Shown: piece by piece, positions 1 through 23,848 of the stretch
Numbering within the stretch: position 1 is the first letter of the stretch
Layout: the number at the start of each line of letters is the position of its first letter
Translations under genes and position numbers: made by a program
The notes under the pieces: model-generated
The model's input: only the letters and a program-made list of their open reading frames with translations
Told to the model about the DNA's origin: nothing
Database searches by the model: none
DNA from: a virus
Length of the DNA stretch: 23,848 nucleotides
Strand: one strand, 5' to 3'
IMG/VR virus record: IMGVR_UViG_3300040801_001470
Coordinates: 1-23,848 of that record

Positions 1-180
1 AGGATCCTCACCGTCGGCCAGCTTTTCATCAAGAGTTTCTTGGTCGTAAGCACGAATGACTCGCTCGAATTTCATGAGGATATCCCAGTCTCCTGGCTCC
101 AGTTCGATGAGGATTGGATCGTGGTCACCACCATCATCCGCCCAGTTTTCGTCCTGTATATTGATAGCGTAAATACTCAT
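1..180 (-). CDS. Acidic hypothetical protein, C-terminus beyond the left edge
   Basis: An open frame starts with ATG at 180 and runs off the left edge (60 codons visible). A GGAG ribosome-binding site sits six bases upstream of the ATG. The visible part is acidic, beginning MSIYAINIQDENW, with many Asp and Glu residues and no recognised domain. It lies downstream of a hairpin promoter candidate whose predicted start is at 274, giving a leader of about 94 bases. It is probably an early phage gene. Function unknown. Confidence 0.7.
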   Translation of the reverse strand, partial: MSIYAINIQDENWADDGGDHDPILIELEPGDWDILMKFERVIRAYDQETLDEKLADGEDP

Positions 181-273
181 ATTAGGCTCCAGTCTAATTG
201 CCGCGGAAATCACTCAAAAAGTTGATTTCCAGTTTCCAGTTGTTGATTTGCAAAGTTGAGCGTGAAAACACAC

Positions 274-291
274 CAAAAGGGACACCGTCCC
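274..291 (-). promoter_or_regulatory. N4-type hairpin promoter candidate A
   Basis: A 5-bp stem (279-283 with 287-291) encloses a three-base loop that reads ACC on the plus strand and GGT in the direction of transcription. Counting the loop centre (285) as -11 puts T at -1 and GG at +1/+2 (274, 273). This is the spacing known for N4 virion RNA polymerase promoters. Candidates at 811-832 and 2927-2947 share the loop, the flanking AC/GT pairs and the T-GG start. It would drive the gene that starts at 180. Confidence 0.55.
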
Positions 292-320
292 GGGTGATTG
301 GCTCGTCTATCTATCAAAGA

Positions 321-353
321 TAAAAGCTTGATCCGACCCCTAAGGGTCGGATC
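321..353 (-). terminator. Terminator after the 132-residue gene
   Basis: A perfect 10-bp stem (330-339 with 344-353) has a four-base loop, TTAG in the direction of transcription, followed by a short T-run (plus-strand AAAA at 321-324). It lies 17 bases past the stop codon of the minus-strand gene at 370-768 and ahead of hairpin promoter A. The terminator at 963-996 has the same loop. Confidence 0.75.
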
Positions 354-369
354 TTGCGAGTTGCTCGGA

Positions 370-768
370 TTAACCGAACAGTTCCTCGTCGATTGCTGTC
401 GCATCGGGTTTCGCAACCGGTGCCATCTCCACAGCTTCCTGCTTGCGGTACAGGACAACGGGGATGTTCAGGACGACGTACTCGCCCTCGTCGAGCGTCA
501 AAGCCTTGGCTTTGATGCGTGCGATCCGCTGATTCAGGAGATCCTGTTCCGCTGCGAATTCAGGGTCCATTTTCTCATAAAGCTTGCGCTCAAACAGGTC
601 GCTGACTGCGACGCCGCGTGGAAAACGGACGAACTTTGGATCGTCTTCGGTGCCAACCCAGATGCCTGGGTTGATGTAGAGACCCGCGTACTCGTCTTGC
701 GCAGCGGGAGCTGCAGCAGTTGTTGAACGAGCTTTTGCGCGAGCGGAGATGGATGATACAGTAGCCAT
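370..768 (-). CDS. Conserved-type phage hypothetical protein, 132 residues
   Basis: The start ATG at 768 is preceded by AAGGA at eight bases. The first 25 or so residues are Ala/Ser/Thr-rich and probably flexible. A compact middle follows with GLYINPGIWVG, a stretch reading FVRFPRGVAVSDL, and an acidic turn before VVLNIPVVLYRKQ. The chain ends in IDEELFG, an acidic-aromatic tail. Similar small proteins occur in many phages, but I know no established function. An acidic-aromatic tail can serve as a protein-docking peptide, as in single-strand DNA-binding proteins; that is only a suggestion here. It is a single-gene unit between hairpin promoter B and the terminator at 321-353, so it is probably expressed early and strongly. 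Confidence 0.85.
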   Translation of the reverse strand: MATVSSISARAKARSTTAAAPAAQDEYAGLYINPGIWVGTEDDPKFVRFPRGVAVSDLFERKLYEKMDPEFAAEQDLLNQRIARIKAKALTLDEGEYVVLNIPVVLYRKQEAVEMAPVAKPDATAIDEELFG

Positions 769-810
769 TGAGTGATCCTTTCGAGATTCACGGTTTCGGG
801 GCGGAAATGC

Positions 811-832
811 CCAGAACGCACACCGTGCGTTC
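811..832 (-). promoter_or_regulatory. N4-type hairpin promoter candidate B
   Basis: A perfect 8-bp stem (814-821 with 825-832) encloses a three-base loop (822-824, ACC on the plus strand, GGT as transcribed). With the loop centre (823) at -11, the base at -1 is T and +1/+2/+3 are GGG (812-810). The resulting leader to the ATG at 768 is 44 bases. The promoter lies between the terminator at 963-996 and the gene it would serve. Confidence 0.65.
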
Positions 833-962
833 CTACAACAGCAAGTCTTGGAGCAGTGTTAAGGCGGCAACCGTTCTCAACTTGATGCTACCCTATCGAA
901 GCACGCAGGAGAGGCCACAAGCACCAGAATGATTGAATGGCGACCAGCCATTCTCTTTTCTT

Positions 963-996
963 AAAAAATTAGGACCAACCACCTAAGTGGTTGATC
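963..996 (-). terminator. Terminator of the minus-strand small-gene operon
   Basis: A 10-bp stem (973-982 with 987-996, one G-T pair) has loop TTAG as transcribed, followed by a six-T run (plus-strand A at 963-968). It lies nine bases past the stop codon at 1005 and ends the chain of coupled genes that begins at 2484. Confidence 0.85.
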
Positions 997-1004
997 CCAT
1001 TGGT

Positions 1005-1176
1005 TTATGTACCAGCACTCTTGTTGACGATTGGTGTGTATTGCACAGTCCAATCATGCCACTCAGTGTTGGTGATGGACACTCTCTTGCCACCAATTGC
1101 AGCTTGAGCTGCAAGTTTTTTCATCAGAGGTGTAAGTTGGAGGTCCAATGTCTTGCGTATAAATACGAAAAAGCAT
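1005..1176 (-). pseudogene. Small hypothetical gene with a frame break in an A6 run
   Basis: The ATG at 1176 has GGAAA eight bases upstream, and the preceding gene stops three bases before it. The frame opens MLFRIYTQDIG and continues to a run of six A (plus-strand T, 1116-1121). Continued in that frame, it stops early at a TGA. Removing one A joins it to a frame ending TPIVNKSAGT with a stop at 1005, just before the terminator, giving about 56 residues. The downstream frame has its own ATG within the A-run context but no Shine-Dalgarno sequence. Either the base count is a sequencing error, or the gene carries a one-base insertion, or a +1 frameshift is used. Function unknown. Confidence 0.5.
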
Positions 1177-1179
1177 GGT

Positions 1180-1365
1180 TTATTTCCGATCTGAGTTGCA
1201 CCAGTCGATGACCGGTTTGGTTGGTTTGCCAACGAGACGAGGTGGCTCTTCATACGGAACGATCTGATAATCGTAGCCATATTCCTTCGCCACATCCTCG
1301 TTGAAGTCGCATGCAAGGACAGTTGAACCGTCCTTGAACACGTACAGGTCATGGGGGTTGCTCAT
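1180..1365 (-). CDS. Hypothetical protein, 61 residues
   Basis: The protein begins MSNPHDLYVFKDGS and ends VIDWCNSDRK. I chose the ATG at 1365 because it overlaps the stop of the upstream gene as ATGA and has GGAG eight bases upstream. A GTG two codons earlier is possible but less well placed. The protein is acidic and aromatic-rich, with no recognised domain. It is translationally coupled inside a run of very small early-type genes. Function unknown. Confidence 0.7.
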   Translation of the reverse strand: MSNPHDLYVFKDGSTVLACDFNEDVAKEYGYDYQIVPYEEPPRLVGKPTKPVIDWCNSDRK

Positions 1366-1460
1366 CCCCACTTCTCCATGGCCCAGCAGAATGCCATCAG
1401 CATAACGACGCCGATCGCAAATGTGGGCATTGGGTTGGCTTGCATGATTGAAATGATCAT
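1362..1460 (-). CDS. Tiny membrane protein, 32 residues
   Basis: This gene encodes a single hydrophobic helix: after MIISIMQANPMP comes a Val/Met/Ala-rich stretch (about residues 13-28), then a short EKWG tail. A full AGGAGG Shine-Dalgarno sequence lies nine bases before the ATG. Its start overlaps the stop of the 26-residue gene as ATGA, and its own stop overlaps the next start the same way. The strong ribosome site and double coupling support a real gene despite the size. Such peptides may act on the host envelope, but no function is established. Confidence 0.65.
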   Translation of the reverse strand: MIISIMQANPMPTFAIGVVMLMAFCWAMEKWG

Positions 1461-1537
1461 CGGAAATTCCCTCCTATGATGATGATAAGCAACAGAATTG
1501 TTGCGATAGCACTGACTACGAAGATTGCCCCCACCAC
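1457..1537 (-). CDS. Tiny membrane protein, 26 residues, GTG start
   Basis: The frame from GTG at 1537 (a second GTG follows at once) encodes about 20 hydrophobic residues, including four consecutive Ile, then GGNFR. It lies three bases after the stop of the 53-residue gene and ends in an ATGA overlap with the next membrane peptide. There is no clear Shine-Dalgarno sequence, so expression would rely on coupling. It could be a non-genic stretch, but the hydrophobic composition and exact overlap favour a gene. Confidence 0.45.
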   Translation of the reverse strand: MVGAIFVVSAIATILLLIIIIGGNFR

Positions 1538-1540
1538 GGT

Positions 1541-1702
1541 TCAGTCTTCTTCTGTGTGAGAACCGGTTCTGCAAGGATTTACTTTCTCTTCTTGCTCTGG
1601 CTCAGTTACGAGACGAATCGTCAATGATTCGCCTGGTTTCAGATCTTTGCTCAACCGTTGAATTCGTTGATAGGTGTTCTCTTTTTGCTCGATGAGAGAC
1701 AT
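1541..1702 (-). CDS. Small charged hypothetical protein, 53 residues
   Basis: The start ATG at 1702 has AGGAGG six bases upstream, and that site overlaps the stop codon of the preceding gene. The protein begins MSLIEQKENTYQRIQR, likely a short helix, followed by PGESLTIRLV, which reads like a beta strand, and an acidic tail ending HTEED. No domain is recognised. It is a central member of the operon 2484 to 1005. Confidence 0.7.
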   Translation of the reverse strand: MSLIEQKENTYQRIQRLSKDLKPGESLTIRLVTEPEQEEKVNPCRTGSHTEED

Positions 1703-1712
1703 GATTGACCTC

Positions 1713-1868
1713 CTAGATCATGGTTGAAAATGAACAGACGAATGTTGCCATTCCATCTGCGATGTACGCTTGTTCTGCAGCTTCTTGCATGCAGTCAGCG
1801 AGTGACCAGAAGTCGGACCACAAGATGTGAATCCGACCTCCAGCTATTTCAGCGAGAGCCCACTCCAT
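1713..1868 (-). CDS. Small hypothetical protein, 51 residues
   Basis: The start ATG at 1868 overlaps the stop of the upstream zinc-ribbon-like gene (TAATG), so translation is coupled. The sequence starts MEWALAEIAGGRIHIL and contains Trp- and Ala-rich segments and two cysteines. The stop codon lies just inside the Shine-Dalgarno sequence of the following gene. Function unknown. Confidence 0.6.
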   Translation of the reverse strand: MEWALAEIAGGRIHILWSDFWSLADCMQEAAEQAYIADGMATFVCSFSTMI

Positions 1869-2131
1869 TAGAGTTTGGATGCTTTACGAGCTGTTATTTG
1901 CTCACGAGTTTCAAACATGGGATGGCCGAGACGAGGTTGATAGTTTCTCTCCCAGTCTCGAAGATTGAAGCTGTCAAAGCGAATTTGATGCATACAGCTT
2001 TTGCAGTACCAAGCGTGGGATCCGTGGTTGTACCACAGAGCAGGTGAATCTTGACACAATGTTCGATTGCAGCTTCCACCTTCCTGACCTTTGTCAGGTT
2101 TGTTTGGGCCATTATAGTCACCATATGCCAT
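1868..2131 (-). CDS. Small zinc-ribbon-like phage protein, 87 residues
   Basis: Four cysteines are arranged C21-x4-C26 and C43-x2-C46 with aromatic residues between them (WYNHGSHAWYC), as in small zinc ribbons common in phage early regions. The rest is polar, with a tail containing GHPMFETREQITAR. The ATG at 2131 is preceded by GGAG at seven bases and overlaps the upstream stop by one base. Shadow frames cover the same span but lack these features. Zinc binding is inferred from the spacing; the biological role is unknown. Confidence 0.75.
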   Translation of the reverse strand: MAYGDYNGPNKPDKGQEGGSCNRTLCQDSPALWYNHGSHAWYCKSCMHQIRFDSFNLRDWERNYQPRLGHPMFETREQITARKASKL

Positions 2132-2484
2132 CAGATTTCTCCGGTGATGAGTTCAACTCGACGCATACGAAGTTGCGTGTTGTTGTACATGTTCAGAGCT
2201 TTGGCTTCGCCTTCGGAGTCACGCTCCATACGGCATCCAAAGCCCATCTCCATGGCATCTGCGAGTTTATCGCAGAGACGCTCACGGATCTTGAAGACAC
2301 GAGTTTCATGGGCAATTTTGGCTGCCCTAGCTTCAGTCATCAGGCTTACAGGCTTGGTTTCTGTTTCGATATTGAAGTGCATTTTCACTGGCTTGCCATT
2401 GATCATCAGCACTCGATGAAGGTCATCGAGATAGACCTGAGTGGCTGCGGATGCGGAGTGAACTGAGTTGGTTGTATGTGTCAT
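2131..2484 (-). CDS. Hypothetical protein, 117 residues
   Basis: The first gene of the coupled operon on the minus strand. GGAG lies seven bases before the ATG at 2484. After a Thr/Ser-rich start, the chain reads as alternating strands and helices, with YLDDLHRVLMINGKPVKMHF early, then charged helices (IRERLCDKLADAMEMG) and a tail ending RRVELITGEI. No domain recognised. The stop overlaps the start of the zinc-ribbon-like gene (TGATG). It probably shares a transcript with the 86-residue gene upstream, since no promoter is evident in the 149-base gap. Confidence 0.75.
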   Translation of the reverse strand: MTHTTNSVHSASAATQVYLDDLHRVLMINGKPVKMHFNIETETKPVSLMTEARAAKIAHETRVFKIRERLCDKLADAMEMGFGCRMERDSEGEAKALNMYNNTQLRMRRVELITGEI

Positions 2485-2599
2485 GGGTTGCTCCCCGTGT
2501 TGACGTTGAAGTTGATTTGGATCGTAGGAGTTGATCTCGGCATAACCACTGTCTGTGACTAGCTATCTTTCTTAGAAACTATCTATCGTTGATTGTGTT

Positions 2600-2635
2600 C
2601 CAACCTCCCGTTTGCACGGAAGGTTGGTTGTTTTT
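2600..2635 (+). terminator. Strong hairpin with its T-run on the plus strand
   Basis: A 12-bp stem (2600-2611 with 2616-2627, one wobble pair) has a four-base loop, GCAA when read on the minus strand. TTGTTTTT follows on the plus strand, so as a Rho-independent terminator it points right, against the genes on both sides. The T-run overlaps the stop codon of the minus-strand gene at 2634. In the minus direction it has no T-run and might act as a stabilising or processing hairpin. Confidence 0.6.
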
Positions 2636-2894
2636 ACAGTTTGTCCCACTCTGCTTCGGCGAGTTCGTATTCTTCGGCCAGTTGGGCGTCTGCTTGCAGT
2701 TGTTTGCGAAGGTCAGCGTTGAATGCCGAGTAGCGGAGCATTGCTGACTTGGTCATGTTCGCTTTGGTTGCTTTGGTGTTCTCTGCTACCCAGTGGTTGC
2801 CAAGGTCCAGTGTGGAGCTGACAGTTTCCACTGATTTTGTTGCAGTGTTGAACGTGGTCTGAACGAATGATGATGCGGATCTGAAGATGGACAT
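2634..2894 (-). CDS. Hypothetical protein, 86 residues
   Basis: A perfect AGGAGG lies eight bases before the ATG at 2894. The N-terminal half is Ser/Thr-rich (MSIFRSASSFVQTTFNTATK), and the C-terminal half is helical and charged, ending EYELAEAEWDKL. No domain recognised. It is the first gene after hairpin promoter C, with a predicted 34-base leader, which suggests one of the earliest and most strongly made proteins. Function unknown. Confidence 0.8.
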   Translation of the reverse strand: MSIFRSASSFVQTTFNTATKSVETVSSTLDLGNHWVAENTKATKANMTKSAMLRYSAFNADLRKQLQADAQLAEEYELAEAEWDKL

Positions 2895-2926
2895 GGATGA
2901 TACCTCCTACGGTAATGGCTTGATTG

Positions 2927-2947
2927 CCAATGCCCACACCGTGGGCA
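2927..2947 (-). promoter_or_regulatory. N4-type hairpin promoter candidate C
   Basis: A perfect 7-bp stem (2931-2937 with 2941-2947) encloses the loop ACC (GGT as transcribed). With the loop centre (2939) at -11, -1 is T and +1/+2 are GG (2928, 2927). The start would lie 34 bases ahead of the ATG at 2894. The core CAC-ACC-GTG is identical to candidate B. Confidence 0.65.
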
Positions 2948-3229
2948 GGACGACAGGGAGGTGGAGTGTGTAACGTACATGGGGGGGATAGCTGAGCCCT
3001 GAGATAAAGACCGGGGGGGTCGACTCACATGTGTAGCCCCAGTGTACAAAAACCCCTACCTCTCTCTCTACAAACACCATTTTCAAAATATAAATTTTTG
3101 AAATTCAGCCATTGATTTTTCCCTGGATATTCGAGGGCTTCATCAAATCATACGAGGATGAGTATCGAGCAGACGAGCGCAGCGAGTCTGTGAAGATACG
3201 AAGAGTCGAAGGATTTTAGGGAGTCCGAG

Positions 3230-3286
3230 TTATGTGATGACGAACGCTACTACAAATACGATGAGTATGAAAAATATGAGATCCAT
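3230..3286 (-). CDS. Possible 18-residue hydrophobic peptide
   Basis: ATG at 3286 is preceded by AGGA at seven bases and encodes MDLIFFILIVFVVAFVIT, almost wholly hydrophobic and long enough to cross a membrane once. It stands alone in the gene-poor region. Two other tiny membrane peptides occur in the early operon. Size and isolation make it uncertain. Confidence 0.25.
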   Translation of the reverse strand: MDLIFFILIVFVVAFVIT

Positions 3287-3534
3287 TTAGTGTTCCTGAA
3301 TTTATGGTATTGCTCATCGGTTTCCGCGGGAAACCTCTTCGCATATCCGGGGGAGCTGAGCTTCTCTTGTCTGTTTACAGACATACCTGTGGCAAGCTTT
3401 AGGTCCTGAGGCTGGGCCAGCCCTGCTTCGTAGGTAGCGATTTTGAGGTGAGCCTGTCAAGTTTTTGAAAGAGAACAGATGTACCGTCTACAGATCATAA
3501 ACCGGAATTATGTTCTCCGGATCATACGTTAGGA

Positions 3535-3581
3535 AGAACAGGCGTTCCACGTTCTGAGTATTTTGAGAACGCCTGTTCTTA
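3535..3581. repeat. 14-bp perfect inverted repeat
   Basis: Arms 3535-3548 and 3568-3581 are perfect complements around a 19-base loop. The element lies just past the stop of the minus-strand gene at 3585. No T-run follows on the minus strand, so it is not a classical terminator; it could be an RNA-processing or transcript-end structure. Confidence 0.6.
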
Positions 3582-3584
3582 ATT

Positions 3585-3896
3585 TCATGGTTCACGAAGG
3601 AGATCGTTTTGTTTTGCGTCACACATCATGAGATAATGTTCTTGTTTGTCTGCCCGGTGCCTCTGAACCCAGTCTCTCGGTCGGAGCCACATCATCTGGT
3701 AAGAAGTTGGACGCATGCCACGGATTTGACCGGTCAAATGAATGATGCGATACTCAGTTCCATCGGCAAAGTATCCTGAGGTTCGGGATGTGCGTTTGAC
3801 AATCTCACCTCGATCCATTGCCATGTCTGAGATGGTCAGAGCTGTAGCGAAATGGTTGGTCAGGATCAGATGAAAAGGTTTACGTTGGTTTGGCAT
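3585..3896 (-). CDS. Hypothetical protein, 103 residues
   Basis: The frame is open from further upstream, but I place the start at ATG 3896. AAGGG precedes it at a normal distance, and the upstream gene overlaps it by 17 bases. The protein begins MPNQRKPFHLIL, contains FADGTEYRIIHLTGQIRG and a basic WLRPRDW segment, and ends NDLLREP. It is basic overall and may bind nucleic acid, but no family is recognised. It forms a two-gene unit with the 68-residue gene. Confidence 0.65.
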   Translation of the reverse strand: MPNQRKPFHLILTNHFATALTISDMAMDRGEIVKRTSRTSGYFADGTEYRIIHLTGQIRGMRPTSYQMMWLRPRDWVQRHRADKQEHYLMMCDAKQNDLLREP

Positions 3897-4086
3897 CTTG
3901 CTGCCCTTCTCTATATTTACGAACTCGTTCACGGAGGATGTATCGACCCAAGATCTCGAGTTGTTCTGGTTCATGTCTGAACATCTTTTGAAAGCTGCGA
4001 TCGAGTTGATTCACAAGTTCCATTGCGGTTTCTTCCCACAAAGCATCCTCTGTGAGTCTTTGATGTATGTCTTTCGAAGTTGACAT
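3880..4086 (-). CDS. Small helical hypothetical protein, 68 residues
   Basis: ATG at 4086 has AAAGGA seven bases upstream. The sequence is charged and helical (MSTSKDIHQRLTEDALWEE at the start, then ILRERVRKYREGQQD near the end). Its start codon overlaps the divergent tRNA-operon promoter at 4080-4108, so transcription on the two strands may interfere. Function unknown. Confidence 0.7.
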   Translation of the reverse strand: MSTSKDIHQRLTEDALWEETAMELVNQLDRSFQKMFRHEPEQLEILGRYILRERVRKYREGQQDAKPT

Positions 4087-4108
4087 GGTGGTGTCCTTTC
4101 AATATAGC
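4080..4108 (+). promoter_or_regulatory. Sigma-70-type promoter of the plus-strand tRNA operon
   Basis: A perfect -35 TTGACA (4080-4085), a 17-base spacer, and -10 TATAGC (4103-4108). The expected start, about seven bases later, falls at or beside the first base of tRNA-Met (4115), implying almost no 5' leader. The promoter lies across the start of the minus-strand gene at 4086. Confidence 0.7.
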
Positions 4109-4114
4109 CCGTTG

Positions 4115-4188
4115 CGCGAGCTGGTGTAATGGTAACACTGGGGACTCATAATTCTCCGCTACCGGTTCAACTCCGGTGCTCGCAACCA
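4115..4188 (+). tRNA. tRNA-Met (CAT), initiator-like acceptor stem
   Basis: Cloverleaf: acceptor CGCGAGC with GCTCGCA, D-stem GTGT/ACAC, anticodon loop CTCATAA, T-loop TTCAACT, discriminator A, encoded CCA. Six acceptor pairs form, and position 1 is a C facing A72, the mismatch typical of bacterial initiator tRNA. Against that, the anticodon stem (GGGGA/TTCTC) lacks the three G-C pairs of initiators, and pair 11-24 is T-A as in elongators. First gene of the plus-strand operon. Confidence 0.85.
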
Positions 4189-4205
4189 AAAAAAGGAATA
4201 TCCCG

Positions 4206-4289
4206 GTGGCCAACGAAGATCCTTGTGATGATTGGTCTAAACAACCCATCCCCAAAAAACCAGTTGACGACAAAGAGAAACCGAAGTAG
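4206..4289 (+). CDS. Possible 27-residue polar peptide between tRNAs
   Basis: A GTG at 4206 has AAGGA eight bases upstream and opens a short frame (VANEDPCDDW..., ending KEKPK) rich in Lys, Asp and Pro. It lies in the 185-base gap between tRNA-Met and tRNA-Tyr and would be on the same transcript. The ribosome site is reasonable, but the frame is short. Confidence 0.3.
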   Translation: MANEDPCDDWSKQPIPKKPVDDKEKPK

Positions 4290-4373
4290 AGCTCGGCCCA
4301 TGAAAAACATTGTCTCATCATCAAGCCTACGATGGCCAAGTGGAAGCTCCCGAAGCTTCTATTGACTCCCTAT

Positions 4374-4457
4374 GGGGAGACTTTCATTGGTGAGATAAGC
4401 GGGTTGTAACCCCGTGGCGGAAACGCTCTACAGGTTCGAGTCCTGTTCTCCCCACCA
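4374..4457 (+). tRNA. tRNA-Tyr (GTA)
   Basis: Acceptor GGGGAGA pairs fully with TCTCCCC, discriminator A, CCA encoded. Anticodon loop TTGTAAC in a GCGGG/CCCGT stem. Long variable arm, as expected for bacterial tRNA-Tyr, and T-arm ACAGG-TTCGAGT-CCTGT. Confidence 0.92.
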
Positions 4458-4496
4458 ATGCCATATGATGAGAAGCTACTGGAGCCAGACAACTTT

Positions 4497-4570
4497 GTCG
4501 GTCTAGTTCAATGGTAGAACAGCAGCTTCCAAACCTGATGATTGGGGTTCGATTCCTCAGACCGATGCCA
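4497..4570 (+). tRNA. tRNA-Trp (CCA) with a weak anticodon stem
   Basis: Acceptor GTCGGTC/GACCGAT (first pair G-T), discriminator G as in bacterial tRNA-Trp, CCA encoded. D-arm GTTC/GAAC is perfect, and the T-loop is TTCGATT. Anticodon loop TTCCAAA gives CCA. The anticodon stem GCAGC/CCTGA has only three central pairs, with mismatches at both ends, so function may be impaired. The 3' half resembles a tRNA-Gly(TCC) anticodon region, but that register does not pair. Confidence 0.8.
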
Positions 4571-4575
4571 AATTT

Positions 4576-4660
4576 GGAAGATGAACCACCTTGGGGTGGC
4601 GCCGCTTGCTAAGCGGATGGGGCCTTCGGGCTTGGGGATCAGGGCCTCCATCTTCCTCCA
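4576..4660 (+). tRNA. tRNA-Ser (GCT)
   Basis: Acceptor GGAAGAT pairs perfectly with ATCTTCC, CCA encoded. Anticodon loop TTGCTAA in a CCGC/GCGG stem. The long variable arm carries GCC-TTCG-GGC, a UUCG tetraloop. The T-loop ATCAGGG departs from the usual TTCRA pattern. It starts five bases after tRNA-Trp. Confidence 0.85.
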
Positions 4661-4666
4661 AGTTGT

Positions 4667-4755
4667 GGAAGGTTTCGGCTGTGTGGACGGCCAGGCGGTT
4701 TGAACCCGTCGATGACTGGGCAACCATGGGGGTTCGACTCCTCAGCCTTCCGCCA
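4667..4755 (+). tRNA. tRNA-Ser (TGA)
   Basis: Acceptor GGAAGGT with GCCTTCC (last pair T-G), discriminator G, CCA encoded. Anticodon loop TTTGAAC in a GGCGG/CCGTC stem, class II long variable arm, T-loop TTCGACT. It begins six bases after tRNA-Ser(GCT) and shares its GGAAG acceptor start. Confidence 0.88.
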
Positions 4756-4759
4756 ACTC

Positions 4760-4826: not shown

Positions 4827-4894
4827 ACAGCGTAGACAAAGCTTGATCCTTGGTGTACGAATTTGGAATATCAATTTAGCAGAGGCTATCTCCC

Positions 4895-5572: not shown

Positions 5573-5577
5573 GATTG

Positions 5578-5739: not shown

Positions 5740-5741
5740 AT

Positions 5742-5816: not shown

Positions 5817-5825
5817 AAATAAACA

Positions 5826-8397: not shown

Positions 8398-9090
8398 ATG
8401 CTGACACTTAATCAGGTACGAGACTCACTCCCTGCTCAGCATAAGCAGAATATCACCCAAGATATGGTGAACCAGCTGAACACCCTATCGAAGGATCCTG
8501 AAGAGGCTCGGTATATCCGAGACAACTTTGTGACGTTCTCGCAAGTTTTGCAAGAGGGTCGTTATAAAGTTGGGGATTACGTCAAAGCTGTGATGTACGT
8601 CTCCTACAAAGTGATGGGGAAAACCAATCAAGAAGCATATCGACTGACCTTCCCCGATCGGTATAACAACATGGCTCAAGCTGGTCGGGCCCAGAAGGAC
8701 ATCGCCTCCATCATCACTGCCTACAACAAAGGCGCCTTGGTTACCAAGATCATGGAACGTGCAATGGTTCCGACTTGGATTCTGAACCAGGATGCATTCC
8801 AAGCAGCGATCAACGTTCAGTACGAGCTCATGATGGATACCTCGGGAGATGTCTCGCCGAAGGTCCGGAGCGATGCAGCAAACAGTTTGCTCACTCACCT
8901 GAAAAAGCCAGATGAAGTGAAGAAGTCTGAGCTGAAAATTGAGATTGGTCTGAACGATGGTATGGCAGCACTCGAGTCAGCATTGGTAGACATGAGTCGA
9001 AAGCAGAAGGATCTGATCGAGCACGATCCGAATTTCTCTGCAAATGATATTGCTTCGATGCCTATGAGAGATGTTACCCCAAATGAATGA
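8398..9090 (+). CDS. Putative terminase small subunit (N4 gp69 position)
   Basis: 230 residues, mostly helical and charged. The middle reads like a DNA-recognition region (GKTNQEAYRLTFPDRYNNM), with MSRKQKDLIEHD in the C-terminal part. AGAGG and CAGG lie upstream of the ATG. It sits directly before, and overlaps, the large terminase gene, as small subunits usually do, and it opens the late operon, matching N4 gp69. Small terminases diverge fast, so the assignment relies mainly on position and size. Confidence 0.7.
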   Translation: MLTLNQVRDSLPAQHKQNITQDMVNQLNTLSKDPEEARYIRDNFVTFSQVLQEGRYKVGDYVKAVMYVSYKVMGKTNQEAYRLTFPDRYNNMAQAGRAQKDIASIITAYNKGALVTKIMERAMVPTWILNQDAFQAAINVQYELMMDTSGDVSPKVRSDAANSLLTHLKKPDEVKKSELKIEIGLNDGMAALESALVDMSRKQKDLIEHDPNFSANDIASMPMRDVTPNE

Positions 9091-10705
9091 AGCTGACTTT
9101 ATTTCAGAAAAGACTGTTGATGATTACCTAAATGAAGTTGATTTTATGATGCTCAACAGCCGGGCAGGATATGTGCCGTCTGAGTTTTCGTTGAAATTCA
9201 TGAACTTCATCAAGCTTGTCAACGGCAGCGTGGGTGAAGACAACAAGACCCCGGTCATGCACTTGGCTATGTTGGATCGACTTGCCGGCAAAGAAAAGAA
9301 GATCGCAAACCTGTGTGCCCGGGGTACTGCAAAGACGACACTCTTCTTTGAGTATCTGAGTCTGTACCTGGCAGTGTTCACGAACTTGCCAAATTTTGGA
9401 GCTGTGACAGGCATGCTCTATATCTCGGACTCCATGGACAACGGTGTGAAGTCTGCAAGAAACTCAATCGAGTTTCGATACAACAACTCGGAGTTCCTCC
9501 AGTATTGGTTACCCTATGCTCGATTCACAGAGAACTACATCGAGTTTCAAAACCGAGATGGTAAAAGACTTGGTATCAAGATGTTCGGCGCCAAGTCTGG
9601 TATTCGTGGTACAAAAATCTTTGGTAAGCGCCCGGTCCTGGCCGTTATGGATGACCTGGTTTCTGATGCTGACTCCAAATCTGCAACAGCAATGGAAGCA
9701 ATCAAAGACACAGTTTATTCAGGAGTCCAGTATGCATTGGATCCCACACGGAACAAGATGATCATGAACGGGACCCCGTTCAACAAAGGTGATATCGTCT
9801 ATGAGGCGATCGAGTCCGGAGCCTGGCACGTTAACGTCTGGCCAATCTGCGAGAAGTTTCCATGTAGCAAAGAAGAGTTTCGCGGAGCTTGGGAAGACCG
9901 GTTCACCTTTGAATACGTGAGCGAACAGTATGAGAGCGCGAAGAAAGAAGGAAAGCTGAAAAGCTTCCGACAAGAGCTTATGCTTCGAATCACCAGTGAT
10001 GAGTCTCGTCTGGTTCAAGACTCTGAGATTCTATGGCGGCCGAGAGCACCTGTGTTGCGCACGAAAGACAACTACAATTTCTACATCACCACTGACTTTG
10101 CAACGTCGTCAAAACAGACGGCCGACTATGCTGTGCAATCCGTCTGGGCATACAATTCAGATATGGAGTGGCACTGGGTAGACGGAGTCGTCGAACGTTG
10201 GAAGATGGACAAGTCGATCAATCAACTATTTGATTTCGTTGATGAATACCAACCTCAGGGTGTGGGGGTCGAGATCTCAGGACAACAGCAAGGGTTCATT
10301 CAATGGCTTCTGAACGAGATGAACTATCGAAACAAGTTCTTCAATTTGACCAATCAAAACGGAAAGCCGGGGATCCGGCCAATAACGGACAAACTATCAC
10401 GGTTCAATCTGGTCGTCCCCCTTTTCAAGTCAGGTAAAGTCTTTTTCCCAAGTGAGTTGAAAAACACAAAGACTCTTGGTATCTTCATTGAGCAGATAGC
10501 TCTTGCCACGCAAGACGGTATCAAAGGCAAAGATGACTGCATCGATACAGTATCCATGTTGCAGTACATGAATCCTTGGGCCCCAGCTTCCGATACACAT
10601 GTTGATTCTGAGTCACCGAACGTGCGGTCAGAACAAGTTTGGGGTAGCAATCTCTTGACACCGGATGATACAGATGAATCACAATATGGATCATACGTGG
10701 TCTGA
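9083..10705 (+). CDS. Terminase large subunit (N4 gp68-like)
   Basis: This is the DNA-packaging motor and headful or end-cutting nuclease. Numbered from the ATG at 9083 (540 residues), the ATPase domain has Walker A CARGTAKTT (about 78-86), Walker B VLAVMDD (185-191) and a coupling segment near IMNGTPF. The nuclease domain shows acidic residues at TTDFA (about 338), GVEIS (about 397) and KGKDDCID (484-488). An ATG four codons earlier (9071) has a purine run immediately against it, so I prefer 9083. The gene overlaps the small-subunit gene by eight bases. Size and motifs fit the N4-like large terminases. Confidence 0.92.
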   Translation: MNEADFISEKTVDDYLNEVDFMMLNSRAGYVPSEFSLKFMNFIKLVNGSVGEDNKTPVMHLAMLDRLAGKEKKIANLCARGTAKTTLFFEYLSLYLAVFTNLPNFGAVTGMLYISDSMDNGVKSARNSIEFRYNNSEFLQYWLPYARFTENYIEFQNRDGKRLGIKMFGAKSGIRGTKIFGKRPVLAVMDDLVSDADSKSATAMEAIKDTVYSGVQYALDPTRNKMIMNGTPFNKGDIVYEAIESGAWHVNVWPICEKFPCSKEEFRGAWEDRFTFEYVSEQYESAKKEGKLKSFRQELMLRITSDESRLVQDSEILWRPRAPVLRTKDNYNFYITTDFATSSKQTADYAVQSVWAYNSDMEWHWVDGVVERWKMDKSINQLFDFVDEYQPQGVGVEISGQQQGFIQWLLNEMNYRNKFFNLTNQNGKPGIRPITDKLSRFNLVVPLFKSGKVFFPSELKNTKTLGIFIEQIALATQDGIKGKDDCIDTVSMLQYMNPWAPASDTHVDSESPNVRSEQVWGSNLLTPDDTDESQYGSYVV

Positions 10706-13392: not shown

Positions 13393-13567
13393 TGTGTCCG
13401 AACCATGCCCACATCCTTGGGACGTGATTTCACCAGTGAAGGGTGTATCCGTTGGTTCAGACGAGATTCGGATGGGTCGCCTTGGAGATGCGCTCATTGA
13501 ATGTGGCGCCGAGAAACAAATTGCTGTAGACGCAAATGTAGAACTTATTGAGATCCTTCGAAACTAG
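13274..13567 (+). CDS. Outer-membrane spanin lipoprotein (Rz1-like)
   Basis: 97 residues in the frame +1 to Rz. A signal peptide (MNWKSKQTMQLALAMMVLL) ends in the lipobox LAAC with Cys24. The mature 74 residues include Pro-rich parts (LPNDVSEPCPHPWD) and end in EILRN. The first 119 bases lie inside Rz, and the remainder extends past it, the embedded-to-overlapping arrangement known for spanin pairs. The gene ends just inside the ribosome site of the portal gene. Confidence 0.85.
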   Translation: MNWKSKQTMQLALAMMVLLPLAACSDSNVAGLRLQELPNDVSEPCPHPWDVISPVKGVSVGSDEIRMGRLGDALIECGAEKQIAVDANVELIEILRN

Positions 13568-13577
13568 GAGTCGAATC

Positions 13578-15920
13578 GTGAAAAATACTGAAGAGATGAT
13601 CGAGAACGATGTTGAATCTCCTGATAACACGCAGGACTCAACTTCGGAGATTTATGACCCGAGCAAGTTGAATGTTCCAGAAAAGGAACGCCTCACTGAC
13701 TGGAAAAATGAGCCTTCGATTGAGAGCCTCAAAGGCGATCTCGAATTTGCTCGTCAGGAAAATACTGATCAGAAGGGCAACGTTGATGGCTGGATCTCTC
13801 TCCGGAACGCCACTGGTTCTGAGAGCGGAAAGAAAACAAAAGCCCCGGGCCGATCATCTGTTCAACCAAAACTGATCCGGAAACACAACGAGTGGCGGTA
13901 TCCGGCACTGAGTGAACCGTTTCTGAACTCAGACCGTATGTTCAATATCAATCCACGGACATTCGAAGATAAAGCCGCGGCAGACCAGAACCAGATGATT
14001 CTGAACTGGCAGTTTGACACCAAACTCAACAAGGTTGATTTCATCGATCGATTTGTCCGTAAGACAGTCGACGAAGGCACATGTGTGGTGCGTGTTGGCT
14101 GGGAACGGAAGACTGAGCGTGTGAAAGTGCTCAAGCCGATTTTCGACTATTACCCGATGGACATGGGTGACGAAGAGGGTATGCAGATCCTTGCTCAGGC
14201 AACCGAGATGGCAATGGCGGATCCTGAAGCTTTTGAAGCTGATCCAAACATCCCGGAAAGTCTCCGGGCTGCCGTTGTTTATGGTCTCGAGAACCAAGAG
14301 ATGGTTGTGGCCGAAGAAGTCGGCGAAGAGTGGGTTGAAGAGACCAAGATTACTTGGAACCAACCGAGTTTGAAGATCGTCAATGTAGCGAACTTTTTCA
14401 TTGATCCATCTTGCGAAGGCGAATGGAACGATGCTCAATATATGATCCATACTTATGAGTCGACAAAGTCAGAGCTCAAAAAGCGGAAGATTTACAAGAA
14501 CCTGGACGATGTGAACTGGGGCGCCAATACGATTAAGGCGCAGACCGGGGACCCGGACCACGAAACAACAACGCCAATCCCAGATGGTCGTCTGAACTCT
14601 GACAAAGCCAAAGTGCTCGTTTATGAGTACTGGGGTTTGTGGGACATCCATGGTGACGGTGAGATGCTACCAATCGTGGCCACGTTCATCGGCGATACAA
14701 TGATCCAGCTTACAGAGAACCCGTTTCCTGACAAGCGTCCACCATTCGTGATTGTGCCTTACATGCCTATCCTTGGTTCTGTCTGGGGTGAAGCTGATGC
14801 ATCCCTCCTGCAAGACAACCAGCGTATCCTGGGTGCTGTCACCCGCGGTACGATCGATCTGCTGGGTCGCTCTGCAAATGCACAAGCCGGTTACTCCAAA
14901 GGTTTCCTGGATCCAGTGAACACGAAGCGTTTCAAAGCCGGGGAAGATTTTGAGTTCAACCCGAACCAAGATCCCCGTGTTGCTATTCAGCAGCTGCAGT
15001 ATCCGGAAATCCCGAACTCTGCACTGACGATGATGCAGCTACAGAATGCCGAAGCTGAGGGCCTGTCCGGGGTCAAAAGCTTCTCAGGGGGTATCACAGG
15101 TGAGGCTTATGGCCGAGTTGCCCGAGGTATCTCTGGCGCCTTGGATGCAGCTGGTCAGCGTGAAATGAGTATCCTCCGTCGACTGGCAGAAGGTATGCGC
15201 CTGATCGGCCGCAAGATTATGGCAATGAACGCCTTCTTCCTGGAAGAGAAAGAAGTGATCCGAGTCACTAACAAAGAGTTTGTCACGATCAGACGTGATG
15301 ATCTGGTTGGTAACTTTGACCTGATCGTCGATATCTCCACTGCTCAAGTTGATGAGCAGAAGTCTCAGGATCTTGGAATGATGCTGCAAACAATGGGCCC
15401 AGATATGGATCCTGGTTTGTCGAAGATCATCCTGGCTGAGATTGCTGATCTGAAACGGATGCCTCATCTCGCCGAGATGATCCGTGCATACGAGCCACAA
15501 CCTGATCCAATGCAGCAAGAGATGCAGCGTCTTCAGATCGCTGATCTTGAAGCTGAGATTGAGCTCAAGAAAGCTCGTGCAATGGAAGCGATGGCTGGTG
15601 CCGAGAACAAAGCTCTCGATACCGAGATGGAGAAAACCGGTCAGAAGCATGCTCAAGCGGTTGAGAAAATGGGAGCTCAGGCTGCCGGCAACCGTGATCT
15701 GGAAGTCACAAAGGCTCTCACAAAAGGTGAGACTCCAGGTGGTCAGATCGAAGCTGCAGTTGGCTTCAATAAGTTGATGGATGATCTTTCGAAGAAGAAT
15801 GCATCACCACAAGAACCCCTTGGTCGACCACCAATGGAACAGCCGACAATGCCTATGGCGCCACTGCGTAGCGCACCAAATGGAGTCGTCGGTGGACAAG
15901 ACCTTGCTTTCCCACAGTAA
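13578..15920 (+). CDS. Portal protein (N4 gp59-like)
   Basis: 780 residues, close to the N4 portal. I prefer the GTG at 13578, seven bases after AGGAG, over an upstream in-frame ATG at 13548 that lies inside the spanin gene. The middle holds portal-like regions (NQMILNWQFDTKLNKVDFID, NFFIDPSCEGEWNDAQYMIH, LLQDNQRILGAVTRGTIDL). The C-terminal 150 residues form a long helical or coiled-coil barrel region (LEAEIELKKARAMEAMAG), then a Pro/Met-rich tail. The portal forms the ring through which DNA enters and leaves the head. Confidence 0.9.
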   Translation: MKNTEEMIENDVESPDNTQDSTSEIYDPSKLNVPEKERLTDWKNEPSIESLKGDLEFARQENTDQKGNVDGWISLRNATGSESGKKTKAPGRSSVQPKLIRKHNEWRYPALSEPFLNSDRMFNINPRTFEDKAAADQNQMILNWQFDTKLNKVDFIDRFVRKTVDEGTCVVRVGWERKTERVKVLKPIFDYYPMDMGDEEGMQILAQATEMAMADPEAFEADPNIPESLRAAVVYGLENQEMVVAEEVGEEWVEETKITWNQPSLKIVNVANFFIDPSCEGEWNDAQYMIHTYESTKSELKKRKIYKNLDDVNWGANTIKAQTGDPDHETTTPIPDGRLNSDKAKVLVYEYWGLWDIHGDGEMLPIVATFIGDTMIQLTENPFPDKRPPFVIVPYMPILGSVWGEADASLLQDNQRILGAVTRGTIDLLGRSANAQAGYSKGFLDPVNTKRFKAGEDFEFNPNQDPRVAIQQLQYPEIPNSALTMMQLQNAEAEGLSGVKSFSGGITGEAYGRVARGISGALDAAGQREMSILRRLAEGMRLIGRKIMAMNAFFLEEKEVIRVTNKEFVTIRRDDLVGNFDLIVDISTAQVDEQKSQDLGMMLQTMGPDMDPGLSKIILAEIADLKRMPHLAEMIRAYEPQPDPMQQEMQRLQIADLEAEIELKKARAMEAMAGAENKALDTEMEKTGQKHAQAVEKMGAQAAGNRDLEVTKALTKGETPGGQIEAAVGFNKLMDDLSKKNASPQEPLGRPPMEQPTMPMAPLRSAPNGVVGGQDLAFPQ

Positions 15921-17634: not shown

Positions 17635-18858
17635 ATGGCTCAATTGTATAACGCCCCTCCAGGCACTCCATCGGACATCGGTCCTCAGTTTAACACTCAC
17701 TACTGGGATCGCCGGTCTCTGATCGATGCTGCTGAACAGATGTTCTTCAGCCCACTGGCTGACGTTCGTCAGATGCCAATGCACTACGGCAAAGAACTGA
17801 AGGTCTACTTCTACGTTCCACTGCTTGATGACCGCAACATCAACGACCAGGGTATCGACGCCAACGGTGTTGTTCTCACTGGCGCTGCTGGTGCAAACCC
17901 AGGCTTTGGTAACATGTACGGCTCTTCGAAAGACGTTGGTACTATCACTGCGAAAATGCCGACTCTGACCGAGACCGGTGGCCGTGTTAACCGCGTTGGT
18001 TTCACTCGTCTTGAGCGTTCTGGTACGCTTCAGGAACATGGTTTCTTCACAGAATTCAGTGAAGACATGATGACTTTTGATACAGATTCCGATCTGTATG
18101 CTCACATGTCGCGTGAGATGGTTGCGGGTGCGAACGAAATCACTGAAGACCTGCTCCAGGTCGACTTGCTGACAAATGCGGGCACTGTCGTGTTCACAGG
18201 CGCAGCTACACAGGACTCTGAGATCATCGGTGAAGGTGCAAACCCATCCGTCGTGACCTATATGGATCTGAAGAAATTGAGCATTGCGCTTGATGACAAC
18301 CGGACTCCAAAGAACACGAAGATCATCAAAGGTTCAACCATGACTGATACGGCGACTATCAACGCCGCTCGTATTATGTACATTGGCTCTGAGCTTCAGG
18401 TGACTGTGGAAAACATGGTGCAGATGGTCGGCACAACTGAAGTTCCAGCATTCGTGCCGGTTCGCAAGTACGCTGCTGCTTCTACAATCATGAACGGCGA
18501 AATCGGTTCGGTTGGTGACTTCCGCATCGTTGTTGTTCCGAACATGATGAAGTGGGAAGGTGCTGGCGCCGCTGAGACTGTTGCTAACCTTGGTTACGCT
18601 GCTACTGGTGGCAACTACGACATCTTCCCGATGCTCGTTGTTGGCGATGGTTCTTTTGCTACTGTTGGTCTCCAGGGCTCCGGCCGTAAGGGTGCCAAGC
18701 AGAAGTTCAAGATCATTGTGAAGAAGCCAGGCAAAGAGATGGCGACGATTCAGGATCCATTCGGTAAGATTGGCTTCAGCTCGATCACCTTCTACCACGG
18801 CTTCATTGCACTGCGCCCTGAGCGTCTGGCAGTCGTGAAAACTGTTGCTGCTGAGTAA
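17635..18858 (+). CDS. Major capsid protein (N4-gp56 family)
   Basis: 407 residues, the usual length for this family. Recognisable parts include HYWDRRSLIDAAEQMFFSPL, LLDDRNINDQGIDANG, GNMYGSSKDVGTITAK, ETGGRVNRVGFTRLE, and the C-terminal end reading FGKIGFSSITFYHGFIALRP. AAAAGGA precedes the ATG. A strong hairpin terminator follows 20 bases after the stop, consistent with the high, separately tuned expression of a major capsid gene. This is the firmest marker that the phage is N4-like. Confidence 0.93.
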   Translation: MAQLYNAPPGTPSDIGPQFNTHYWDRRSLIDAAEQMFFSPLADVRQMPMHYGKELKVYFYVPLLDDRNINDQGIDANGVVLTGAAGANPGFGNMYGSSKDVGTITAKMPTLTETGGRVNRVGFTRLERSGTLQEHGFFTEFSEDMMTFDTDSDLYAHMSREMVAGANEITEDLLQVDLLTNAGTVVFTGAATQDSEIIGEGANPSVVTYMDLKKLSIALDDNRTPKNTKIIKGSTMTDTATINAARIMYIGSELQVTVENMVQMVGTTEVPAFVPVRKYAAASTIMNGEIGSVGDFRIVVVPNMMKWEGAGAAETVANLGYAATGGNYDIFPMLVVGDGSFATVGLQGSGRKGAKQKFKIIVKKPGKEMATIQDPFGKIGFSSITFYHGFIALRPERLAVVKTVAAE

Positions 18859-20853: not shown

Positions 20854-23547
20854 ATGGGAACTGAGATCTTTGTAGCATCCTCGATCTATAACTTGGCCGG
20901 GGATGCCATCAACCGCCCAAATTTCTTGAAGTCATCGTTGTTCAGTGCAGTCATGAACCCATACGACACGTATTTGGGTGAGACAGTTGTGAACAACTAT
21001 CTGACTGGGCCCGGGATCATGCAAAGATCCTTTTTCAACTGGGCTGTGAGAAATGATGTTGCCGGGCTGCCAACACTGAATGTGACAACATCAAGTGAGC
21101 TCAGTCTTGCAGGTGTTGAGCCGTTTTTGCCAAATGACAATATTCCAGCTGGCAAGGTTTCTGTCATCCGTCGGGGAGAGATTCTCTCCGGAGATTTTCT
21201 GCCTTTTGTAGAAAAACTTGTGATGGATAACCACCCAGCTGAGGTTGGGACAAACTGGTCCGCAGATTTCAATGAGTCGACGAATGAGTTCATCATCCAG
21301 TTTGTTGGTGGAGCAACTTCGGTTTATCCCGCGGGGATCTACGATTTCAATAAAGAGTACATCGCCATCTGGTATTACCAAGTGGCGCCGGCAGAAGTGC
21401 AGCCTCTGATTACTGGAGCAACAACAATTGCGTCCGAGACTCCTCATCCAGATCAGGGTACATTCTCAATGGTGACTCCTGTAAATGGCGCCACTGTGAC
21501 GTATAATTTGTCGAGAGACGTGCGTGTCACGAAGAGCTATGACAACGGGGATCCTGACATCGTCACAGACTCCGTCGAGCCCTCAACTGTGGACTTCACC
21601 ACGGTACAGAGAGATGGAACCAAAACGACCTATAAAGGTGGTGATGGGGTAACCCCGGAGACCACAACAAAGAATCATTGGCTTTATCAGACCGAGTACA
21701 AACAAGTGGTGGATGACCCTGTGGGAACGACCACAGTGACGACTTCCATCACCGGGGGTGTGACTGAGACAATCACCACATGGAACCGTGGTGACGTTCT
21801 TTTGGATGCCTGGGACTTCAGAGAAGACACTCAGGATACGATCGAAGACAAGATCCTCGAGCCTCTCACCATTTGGTTCTATGAAGTCGGGAGTGGTAAC
21901 GCGACTCTTGATGCTCTGGTAGAAGACACCAGCCCTGTTACTGCGCCGGCATATTACCCGTTCTTGCCAGTGAGGTTGAACAACGTCTCGATTGAGGCGC
22001 CACAATACAGTGTGGCCACAGGTAATGGACTTTTTGAAGAGAGCCGGAAGGCATACAAAAAAGCTGTCAAAGGAAAGCTTGGTGAGCTGGTTCTGGAAGT
22101 AGAAGCAAACCCTGATATTGGAGACATCGATTATGCCTTCATCCAATGGGCTGTAGCTGCAAACGCAGTCGATCAATCAGCACAACGTTACATCTATGAA
22201 TATTTCCGAAGCTTCATTCCAATGCAGCCGGCCGGGCCCTCACCAATTGCTGGTTTTGAGGCAGAGATTACGAGTTATGAGGCGGCCGTGGCCGCTTATG
22301 ACCAGTGGATCCTTGATCAGGCCAATGCTGCAAGTGGGGGGTATGGAACAGCAAAACCAGCTGCTCCAACTCTTGGGTCGAGCTTGGCCACTACGACAAC
22401 CAGATTGCGTGCTGATCATCCGAGTCTCGGAGGATTTGACATGCGTATCAGTTGGAATCACATGGAAGAAGAATTCAATGTGCCCACTGTATCGACACGG
22501 CCAATTGGAGACGTGTGGTCTGAGGTTGGTGGTGAAGTTCAATGGACCGAACTGTCTGGTATTGCTCTTGCTTTGGCTCAAAACAAAAACGTGAAAGAGT
22601 GTTTTTACTACAAACAGACTGGCCCTTTTCAGTGCAGCAGAATTCGTATCTGGGGGATGAAACACCAAAACTACATCTACCGCGGGAAGAAAGTCACAAC
22701 TCAGCTTCATGATGCAATCGTAGCAGGGGAAGAGTCCCCATTTTTAGTTCCGATGCATGCGCCCACAGTGAAAGCACTGGGGGTGAAAGACTTCACCCAG
22801 TTGTCGATGCAGAACACATTCATCGTCTTCAATTCCTATGAAGTTGTGAAGAAGAAATGGTATGAAACATTCCTTGGGATGCTTCTCATTGTGATTGCGA
22901 TCGTAGTTATCTCTGTGTTGATCAACCCAGCTTTTGCAGCAAATGCGAGTGGGTTTCTCGGAACCAATGCAGCAGTGGGTGCTGGATTAGGTCTATCAGG
23001 AACAGCAGCTATCGTTGCTGGAGCTGTGGCCAATGCCATTGCAGCAATTGTGATTTCAGCAGCAATTTCAGAGATTGCCGTAGATGTGTTTGGTGAAACT
23101 TGGGGGCCGATCATTGCTGCAATAGCAACGATTGCTATGGGTGGTTTCAACATCCAGGATGGTTTCCAATTCAACATGACGACGTTCATGACTCCTCAGA
23201 ATATTCTCAGAATGGCATCTGCTTTGGCCAATGGATACAATGGTTTTGTCATGAAAGAGATCCAGGACATTCAGGCAGAGATGGAAGAAAATCAATCTGC
23301 GTATGACCGGGCCATCAAAGAACACTATAATCTGATGCGTGAGCAGGGTCTTATAAATGATTTGATGTTTGACCAGATGACCCTTACAGATAGTGTTCAA
23401 GGCAATGGTTCCTCTGGCAGCTACGTCCCTGAGACGCTGGATGGGTTTATCAACCGAACAACTATGTTGGGAACCGACATTGCAGACACCACATTGTCGA
23501 TGGTGAACGACTATCCCGCACTTCAAAGAACTCTACCGAAAGGATAA
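20854..23547 (+). CDS. Large virion protein with membrane segments, probable ejection protein
   Basis: 897 residues, with GGAGG seven bases before the ATG. The N-terminal two thirds are beta-rich and tail-protein-like (FVASSIYNLAGDAINRPNFL at the start, FYEVGSGNATLDALV and FDMRISWNHMEEEFNVP later). Near 670-765 come three hydrophobic segments: one strong helix (LGMLLIVIAIVVISVLI), then Gly/Ala-rich segments (IVAGAVANAIAAIVISAAI, IIAAIATIAMGGF). The C-terminus is a charged helix. The position fits the N4 gp52-gp53 region ahead of the virion RNA polymerase. A protein that inserts into the host membrane during DNA and polymerase delivery is likely but inferred. Confidence 0.65.
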   Translation: MGTEIFVASSIYNLAGDAINRPNFLKSSLFSAVMNPYDTYLGETVVNNYLTGPGIMQRSFFNWAVRNDVAGLPTLNVTTSSELSLAGVEPFLPNDNIPAGKVSVIRRGEILSGDFLPFVEKLVMDNHPAEVGTNWSADFNESTNEFIIQFVGGATSVYPAGIYDFNKEYIAIWYYQVAPAEVQPLITGATTIASETPHPDQGTFSMVTPVNGATVTYNLSRDVRVTKSYDNGDPDIVTDSVEPSTVDFTTVQRDGTKTTYKGGDGVTPETTTKNHWLYQTEYKQVVDDPVGTTTVTTSITGGVTETITTWNRGDVLLDAWDFREDTQDTIEDKILEPLTIWFYEVGSGNATLDALVEDTSPVTAPAYYPFLPVRLNNVSIEAPQYSVATGNGLFEESRKAYKKAVKGKLGELVLEVEANPDIGDIDYAFIQWAVAANAVDQSAQRYIYEYFRSFIPMQPAGPSPIAGFEAEITSYEAAVAAYDQWILDQANAASGGYGTAKPAAPTLGSSLATTTTRLRADHPSLGGFDMRISWNHMEEEFNVPTVSTRPIGDVWSEVGGEVQWTELSGIALALAQNKNVKECFYYKQTGPFQCSRIRIWGMKHQNYIYRGKKVTTQLHDAIVAGEESPFLVPMHAPTVKALGVKDFTQLSMQNTFIVFNSYEVVKKKWYETFLGMLLIVIAIVVISVLINPAFAANASGFLGTNAAVGAGLGLSGTAAIVAGAVANAIAAIVISAAISEIAVDVFGETWGPIIAAIATIAMGGFNIQDGFQFNMTTFMTPQNILRMASALANGYNGFVMKEIQDIQAEMEENQSAYDRAIKEHYNLMREQGLINDLMFDQMTLTDSVQGNGSSGSYVPETLDGFINRTTMLGTDIADTTLSMVNDYPALQRTLPKG

Positions 23548-23551
23548 AACT

Positions 23552-23848
23552 ATGGCCGGACCAAATGATCCACTTATGCAGAATGCTGTGGGAGCACAAA
23601 CCAACCCGCAATTTGCAGTGAACAATATCACAGGCTCAATGTACAACACTGGAACCGGTGAAATGCAAGCACCTGGTTTCTTCCAACAAGGCGGCATGGC
23701 TCAAATGGGTCTTGGCGCTATTTCTACGTTGGGCGGCCTGTGGAACAGTTTCCAGCAGTCCAAGATTGCAAAGAAATCTTTGCAGCTGCAAACAAAGGCT
23801 TTTGAAACCAACCTGAAAAACCAGACACAAACATACAACACGGAACTG
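23552..23848 (+). CDS. Virion-associated protein, C-terminus beyond the right edge
   Basis: ATG at 23552 has AAAGGA eight bases upstream. 99 codons are visible, starting MAGPNDPLMQNAVGAQTN. The first 45 residues are Asn/Gln/Gly-rich, then a Gly-rich amphipathic segment (GAISTLGGLWNSFQQS) and a polar helix begins (KIAKKSLQLQTKAFETNLKN). Gln-rich helical proteins of this type lie next to the virion RNA polymerase gene in N4-like phages. It probably belongs to the internal-protein set. Confidence 0.75.
   Translation, partial: MAGPNDPLMQNAVGAQTNPQFAVNNITGSMYNTGTGEMQAPGFFQQGGMAQMGLGAISTLGGLWNSFQQSKIAKKSLQLQTKAFETNLKNQTQTYNTEL

Follow-up and report, generated by a model that had tools for sequence, protein, structure and literature searches.

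The window analysed here is a 23,848-base IMG/VR fragment of viral DNA (IMGVR_UViG_3300040801_001470), in whose left part three short hairpins with the same GGT loop each precede a minus-strand gene (Table 1). The left part (1-8321) comprises minus-strand genes and nine tRNAs. The right part codes, in order, for gp69-, gp68 (terminase)-, portal-, major capsid-, gp55-, gp54- and gp53-like proteins, followed by the start of gp52; this is an N4-like late operon. The N4-type hallmark genes present are those for the terminase, the portal, the major capsid protein and gp53/54/55/69, and among named phages the terminase is nearest to those of the Rhodovirinae of marine roseobacters (about 65-70% identity). 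By its genes, the window is a fragment of a Schitoviridae genome from a Rhodovirinae-like, N4-like phage.

Table 1. Putative promoter hairpins, associated repeats and genes of the window
Feature	Position	Strand	Remarks
Putative P1-like early promoter hairpin, TGCCCAC-GGT-GTGGGCA	2931..2947	-	predicted start 2928 (GGCAATCAAGCC); upstream of orf1-like gene, as in G014, L006, L007 and R7L
Putative P2-like early promoter hairpin, GAACGCAC-GGT-GTGCGTTC	814..832	-	predicted start 812 (GGGCATTTCCGCCC); adjoins gp2-like gene, as N4 P2 adjoins gp2
Putative P3-like early promoter hairpin, GGGAC-GGT-GTCCC	279..291	-	predicted start 274 (GGTGTGTTTTCAC); after gp2-like gene
Start-proximal inverted repeat, GGC-AATCAA-GCC	2917..2928	-	5' end of predicted transcript
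Start-proximal inverted repeat, GGGC-ATTTCC-GCCC	799..812	-	5' end of predicted transcript
Start-proximal inverted repeat, GTG-TGTTTT-CAC, from +2	262..274	-	5' end of predicted transcript
First early gene, 86 aa, DSS3phi2 orf1 homologue (phrog_14155)	2634..2894	-	behind 2931-2947 hairpin
N4 gp2-like gene, 132 aa (phrog_4099)	370..768	-	behind 814-832 hairpin
Start of gene behind P3	1..180	-	cut by window edge; no homologue found
N4 gp69-like gene	8398..9090	+	
Terminase large subunit, N4 gp68-like	9071..10705	+	
Portal, N4 gp59-like	13548..15920	+	
Major capsid protein, N4 gp56-like	17635..18858	+	
N4 gp53-like gene	20854..23547	+	
gp52-like gene, cut by window edge	23552..23848	+	gp51, then vRNAP gene (gp50), expected to the right

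The initial annotation described these hairpins as promoters with the geometry read by the virion RNA polymerase (vRNAP) of phage N4. Their coordinates, strand and stems proved exact, with perfect stems of 5 (279-291), 8 (814-832) and 7 bp (2931-2947), and when the loop centre is counted as -11, T at -1 and GG at +1/+2 (hereafter T/GG) are present in all three on the minus-strand reading and in none on the plus-strand reading. This counting puts the predicted starts at 274, 812 and 2928, as annotated; the leaders, which run for 94, 44 and 34 bases before the ATGs at 180, 768 and 2894, were likewise borne out. The likeness to N4 P2 goes further than claimed: the N4 promoters taken from EF056009 (P1, 90-102; P2, 557-573; P3, 4546-4562) are recovered by the hairpin scan used for the window, and P1, P2 and P3 all have the same spacing and T/GG start. 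As is typical of N4 vRNAP promoters, the window hairpins are inverted repeats with a 3-nt loop centred at -11 (stems of 5-7 bp in N4, of 5, 7 and 8 bp here), with C at template +1 (RNA beginning with G) and a loop-closing 3'G:C5' pair in the template strand. In N4 this closing pair is needed for hairpin extrusion (PMC4496689). DNA folding energies did not separate the template-strand from the non-template-strand hairpin.

Short hairpins with 3-nt loops are frequent, with 43 places in the window, as would suit chance inverted repeats. One further T/GG hairpin, with a CTT loop, lies at 14026-14038 within the portal gene, and the search for GGT hairpins proposed in the initial annotation found no others (3-nt loop, stem of at least 5) on either strand of the window. 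In 2,000 dinucleotide-preserving shuffles, T/GG hairpins occurred at a mean of 0.96 per window; at least two of one loop were found in 0.9% of the shuffles, and three in none. With three such hairpins of one loop at positions conserved in relatives, the probability that they arose by chance is practically negligible.

The genes behind the hairpins correspond to early genes of N4-like phages. DSS3phi2 orf1, the homologue of the gene behind the P1-like hairpin, is the first gene of the DSS3phi2 genome, and the 132-aa protein coded behind the P2-like hairpin is 40.7% identical (E 1.5e-18) to DSS3phi2 orf3, which is N4 gp2-like. In N4, gp2 serves as a cofactor for middle transcription. Single-protein searches with these two early proteins gave no match in viral_contigs, but alignment-based searches did. 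The three hairpins thus take the places ahead of the equivalents of gp1, gp2 and RNAP1, the first two directly, through the orf1-like and gp2-like genes; for the third we infer RNAP1 from the relative G014, because the window ends before that gene. In the relatives that we collected (IMG/VR loci with related terminases, gp2-like and orf1-like proteins, plus named phages), the third hairpin precedes RNAP1, lying 281 bases ahead of it in G014, and the initial sequence of G014 P3 (GTGGTGTTTTCCATC) resembles that of the window P3 (GGTGTGTTTTCAC). From these comparisons, the third window hairpin probably precedes RNAP1, which would lie outside the window.

Hairpins of the same geometry are found ahead of the orf1, gp2-like and RNAP1 genes in most relatives, with various loops. 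The non-template loop is TCC in DSS3phi2, EE36phi1, R7L, DS-1410Ws-06 and others, TTC in G026, G028, G032 and G009, TGC in G014, G006, G018 and G022, CTT in G021, TCT in L007 and GGT in the window; L006 has GCC twice plus TCC. Within the genomes of our curated set (55 promoters, 21 genomes), the loop agrees in 49/55 pairs and position -8 in 50/55, whereas position -6 agrees in 15/55, not above the shuffled value. Because some of the weaker promoters in that set were accepted partly for sharing a loop, we also scanned 28 early regions (187 kb) without this bias, requiring a stem of at least 5 and T/GG and leaving the loop unconstrained. It yielded 42 hairpins on the early strand, 39 of them with a C-G closing pair, versus 3 on the opposite strand. 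Loops agreed in 23 of 31 within-genome pairs (shuffled mean 5.3, maximum 14 in 5,000), and the -8 position in 21 of 31 (shuffled mean 9.0, maximum 18). One exception is G022, with a constant loop and varying -8. The outer stem bases vary freely across the surveyed early regions.

A constant loop and -8 with a free -6 is the pattern of N4's mapped contacts. Across about 20 relatives, the comparison suggests that each phage lineage may have its own loop and stem 'password', changing along with the polymerase. The initial annotation had taken the constant loop amid differing stems as the mark of a polymerase contact. It missed that neither the loop nor the -8 pair is that of N4, and that the constant loop is a lineage-specific signal, common to the hairpins of this genome and different in relatives.

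The same data bear on another role for the hairpins, as RNA or DNA elements acting as short terminators or as protein-binding operators of early genes. Inverted repeats are common near gene starts, and TTTT follows the 279 hairpin. However, the stems are short, the T run is absent in two of the three, the hairpins sit ahead of genes and not after them, and what stays constant in them is the loop, the -8 pair and the spacing to T/GG, just as in N4's mapped promoters. We therefore consider terminators or operators very unlikely.

A second inverted repeat is often found at +1 or +2 of the predicted transcripts, as in GGCA-ATTA-TGCC. Of 48 distinct starts, 33 show it with 3 or more pairs (shuffled mean 9.2, maximum 19 in 3,000 shuffles), in promoters that were not chosen by its presence, and it also occurs at N4 P1 and P2 and in most relatives. 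N4 vRNAP lacks a portion of the domain with which T7 RNA polymerase separates the RNA, and displacement depends on the host single-stranded DNA-binding protein (PMC4496689); for this reason the repeat might help to free the transcript from the template. Protection of the transcript 5' end is another possible role.

How the hairpins might be read can be compared with N4, whose vRNAP reads a purine at template -11, G at -10, G at -8 and C at +1, with K114 contacting -10 G, R119 and W129 contacting -11, D901 contacting -9/-10 and R904 contacting -8 G; a sheared pair forms between -10 G and -12 A in the N4 hairpins (PMC4496689). The window keeps the closing pair, +1 C and the spacing, and departs from N4's strict recognition sequence, with template -12 C, -11 C, -10 A (loop ACC) and -8 A. 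As the template bases differ at -12, -11, -10 and -8, N4's contacts there cannot be kept.

In an alignment of vRNAPs (N4 numbering), the catalytic motifs are conserved and the -11 element is divergent. Residue 904 is R or K in N4, G009, G018, G021, G025, G026, G028, G032 (L161) and JWAlpha, each of which has template -8 G. It is V in DSS3phi2, A in R7L, N in G024, E in G006 and E in G016, and these five share template -8 C. The sole exception among the 15 phages is G015, with Q904 and template -8 G. R or K is thus found in 9/10 phages with -8 G versus 0/5 with -8 C, a rule that fits 14/15 and whose Fisher P of 0.002 is only a guide because the phages are related. In the vRNAP tree, the -8 C phages stand in separate places (G016, G006, G024, and DSS3phi2 with R7L), and R/K is absent in each. 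The four readable vRNAPs nearest the window lineage (G002, G007, G012 and G030), whose contigs are without the early region, have Q904, and we predict that Q904 would be paired with -8 A in the window virus. No vRNAP was found for any GGT-class phage. The literature surveyed, which included few subscription journals, yielded no account of loops specific to a lineage or of a link between residue 904 and -8.

The hairpins might instead serve the middle RNA polymerase (RNAPII) or the host polymerase, a reading that gains from the lack of a vRNAP gene in the fragment. Their position in the early block, their N4 geometry and the covariation of -8 with a residue of the vRNAP specificity loop oppose it, and since in relatives a hairpin of this kind precedes RNAP1 itself, the first transcripts cannot come from RNAPII. 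We regard these polymerases as very unlikely indeed to be the readers.

The vRNAP-promoter reading of the initial annotation is thus upheld by the N4-like genes of the window, the orthologous early genes and the same-place hairpins in relatives. We are highly confident that the three hairpins are early promoters of an N4-like phage, at positions orthologous to N4 P1, P2 and P3, and that they would be read by the virion polymerase through a code of its own; they are a known kind of promoter, with a recognition sequence departing from N4's rules. On the N4 model, the hairpin would be extruded by supercoiling of the incoming DNA, and the virion-carried polymerase would bind it on the template strand, begin the RNA with GG opposite CC, 11 positions past the loop centre, and transcribe the gp2-like and other early genes. 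Recognition would involve the loop and the second stem pair (-8), the window lineage using its own version of the code, with template loop ACC and -8 A instead of N4's GGA or GAA and -8 G. The virus's own polymerase would be the product of a gp50-like gene. In N4 the order is gp52, gp51 and then the virion polymerase gene gp50, so the vRNAP gene is expected about 2.5 kb past the right edge of the window, which stops in gp52, two genes before the expected place of this giant gene. A vRNAP gene is present in every relative larger than 60 kb that was searched, and in relatives it lies downstream of the late operon.

Several points weigh against this interpretation. The vRNAP and RNAP1 genes of the window virus fall outside the fragment, and no promoter of N4-like hairpin form could be assigned in several relatives, among them RPP1, G010, G013, G029 and G031. 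The only other GGT hairpin found, in G011, is a single copy, and the R904 of the vRNAP from the same sample misfits -8 A. The Fisher test assumes independence. The -11 element (K114, R119, W129) cannot be aligned reliably beyond N4's close kin, so the reading of the loop is not explained. Nor could a promoter of this form be assigned in RD-1410W1-01 or, by the T/GG scan, in LIT1, LUZ7 and Erwinia S6. With these reservations, we lean towards a broader picture in which vRNAP and hairpin would form lineage-specific lock-and-key pairs, the loop and the -8 pair changing in all early promoters together with the polymerase specificity loop. The window lineage would have abandoned the stable GNA-type triloop and the central purine thought essential in N4, and the hairpin at the transcript 5' end would have been kept in most lineages.

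G011, with a GACAC-GGT-GTGTC hairpin ahead of its gp2-like gene, was considered as another phage of the GGT class. It was not counted as such because this hairpin is a single copy without a start-proximal repeat and without a matching P1 or P3, and because R904 is present in the vRNAP on a different contig from that sample. Separately, G021 (L121) has three early CTT-loop hairpins (6533, 7945 and 8516), whose template loop AAG also departs from the N4 GNA form. Vibrio phage pVa5 (L185) has two early-strand TAC-loop hairpins, ACTCAC-TAC-GTGAGT and AATCAC-TAC-GTGATT (8893 and 10758), which are possibly its promoters.

Other features of the left part include the nine tRNA genes at 4115-6260 (Met, Tyr, Trp and Ser on the plus strand; Gln, Phe, Ile, Asn and Pro on the minus strand), of which the tRNA-Asn region is 84% identical to a cyanophage tRNA-Asn. 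Upstream of P1, positions 2980-3110 harbour G-rich tracts (GGGGGGG) in a long stretch without a clear gene, which could lie near a genome end or terminal repeat. A small early protein with cysteine pairs (CNRTLC...CKSC), coded at 1868-2131 on the minus strand, matches phrog_13772 weakly and is perhaps zinc-binding.

Among the sites discussed here, experimental evidence is known for those of N4 only, and as far as the surveyed literature shows, hairpin-promoter recognition has been worked out in detail in N4 alone. A natural series of hairpins that differ in loop and -8 pair, matched to polymerases with a changing specificity-loop residue, makes the mechanism testable by swapping. It would reveal if the GNA triloop and central purine are found in N4 alone or are a general feature, and in vitro transcription could gain from it a set of single-stranded promoters that are mutually orthogonal. 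A comparison of the N4-like roseophages RPP1 and RLP1 identified no promoter consensus (PMC4193335), and our analysis found none in them either; the early hairpins located in several other roseophages fill part of this gap.

Putative hairpins of N4 character have been reported for LUZ7/LIT1 (PMC3715699) and the Pectobacterium CB1 phages (PMC6027278). Like the window, these phages have three such early hairpins with a 3-nt loop; they are described as N4-like in structure with a central purine in the loop, and the text consulted proposes no lineage-specific code. The N4 promoters themselves, upstream of gp1, gp2 and gp15, share with the window the 3-nt loop, the C-G closing pair, the centre at -11, T at -1 and the GG start, on stems of 5-7 bp. 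They differ in their template loops (GAA, GGA and GGA) and -8 G, versus ACC and -8 A in the window, where the sheared -10G:-12A pair of N4 is impossible. The Rhodovirinae DSS3phi2, EE36phi1, R7L and DS-1410Ws-06 resemble the window in geometry, gene order and the C-G closing pair, but have the loop TCC (template GGA) and template -8 C, and some of their starts are GA or GCG, not GG. The TGC-loop relatives G014, G006, G018 and G022 are near the window in gene content (terL identity of 75-86% for three of them) and share its template C at -11, and G014 also has template -8 A, as in the window; their template loop GCA keeps the GNA form, whereas the ACC of the window does not.

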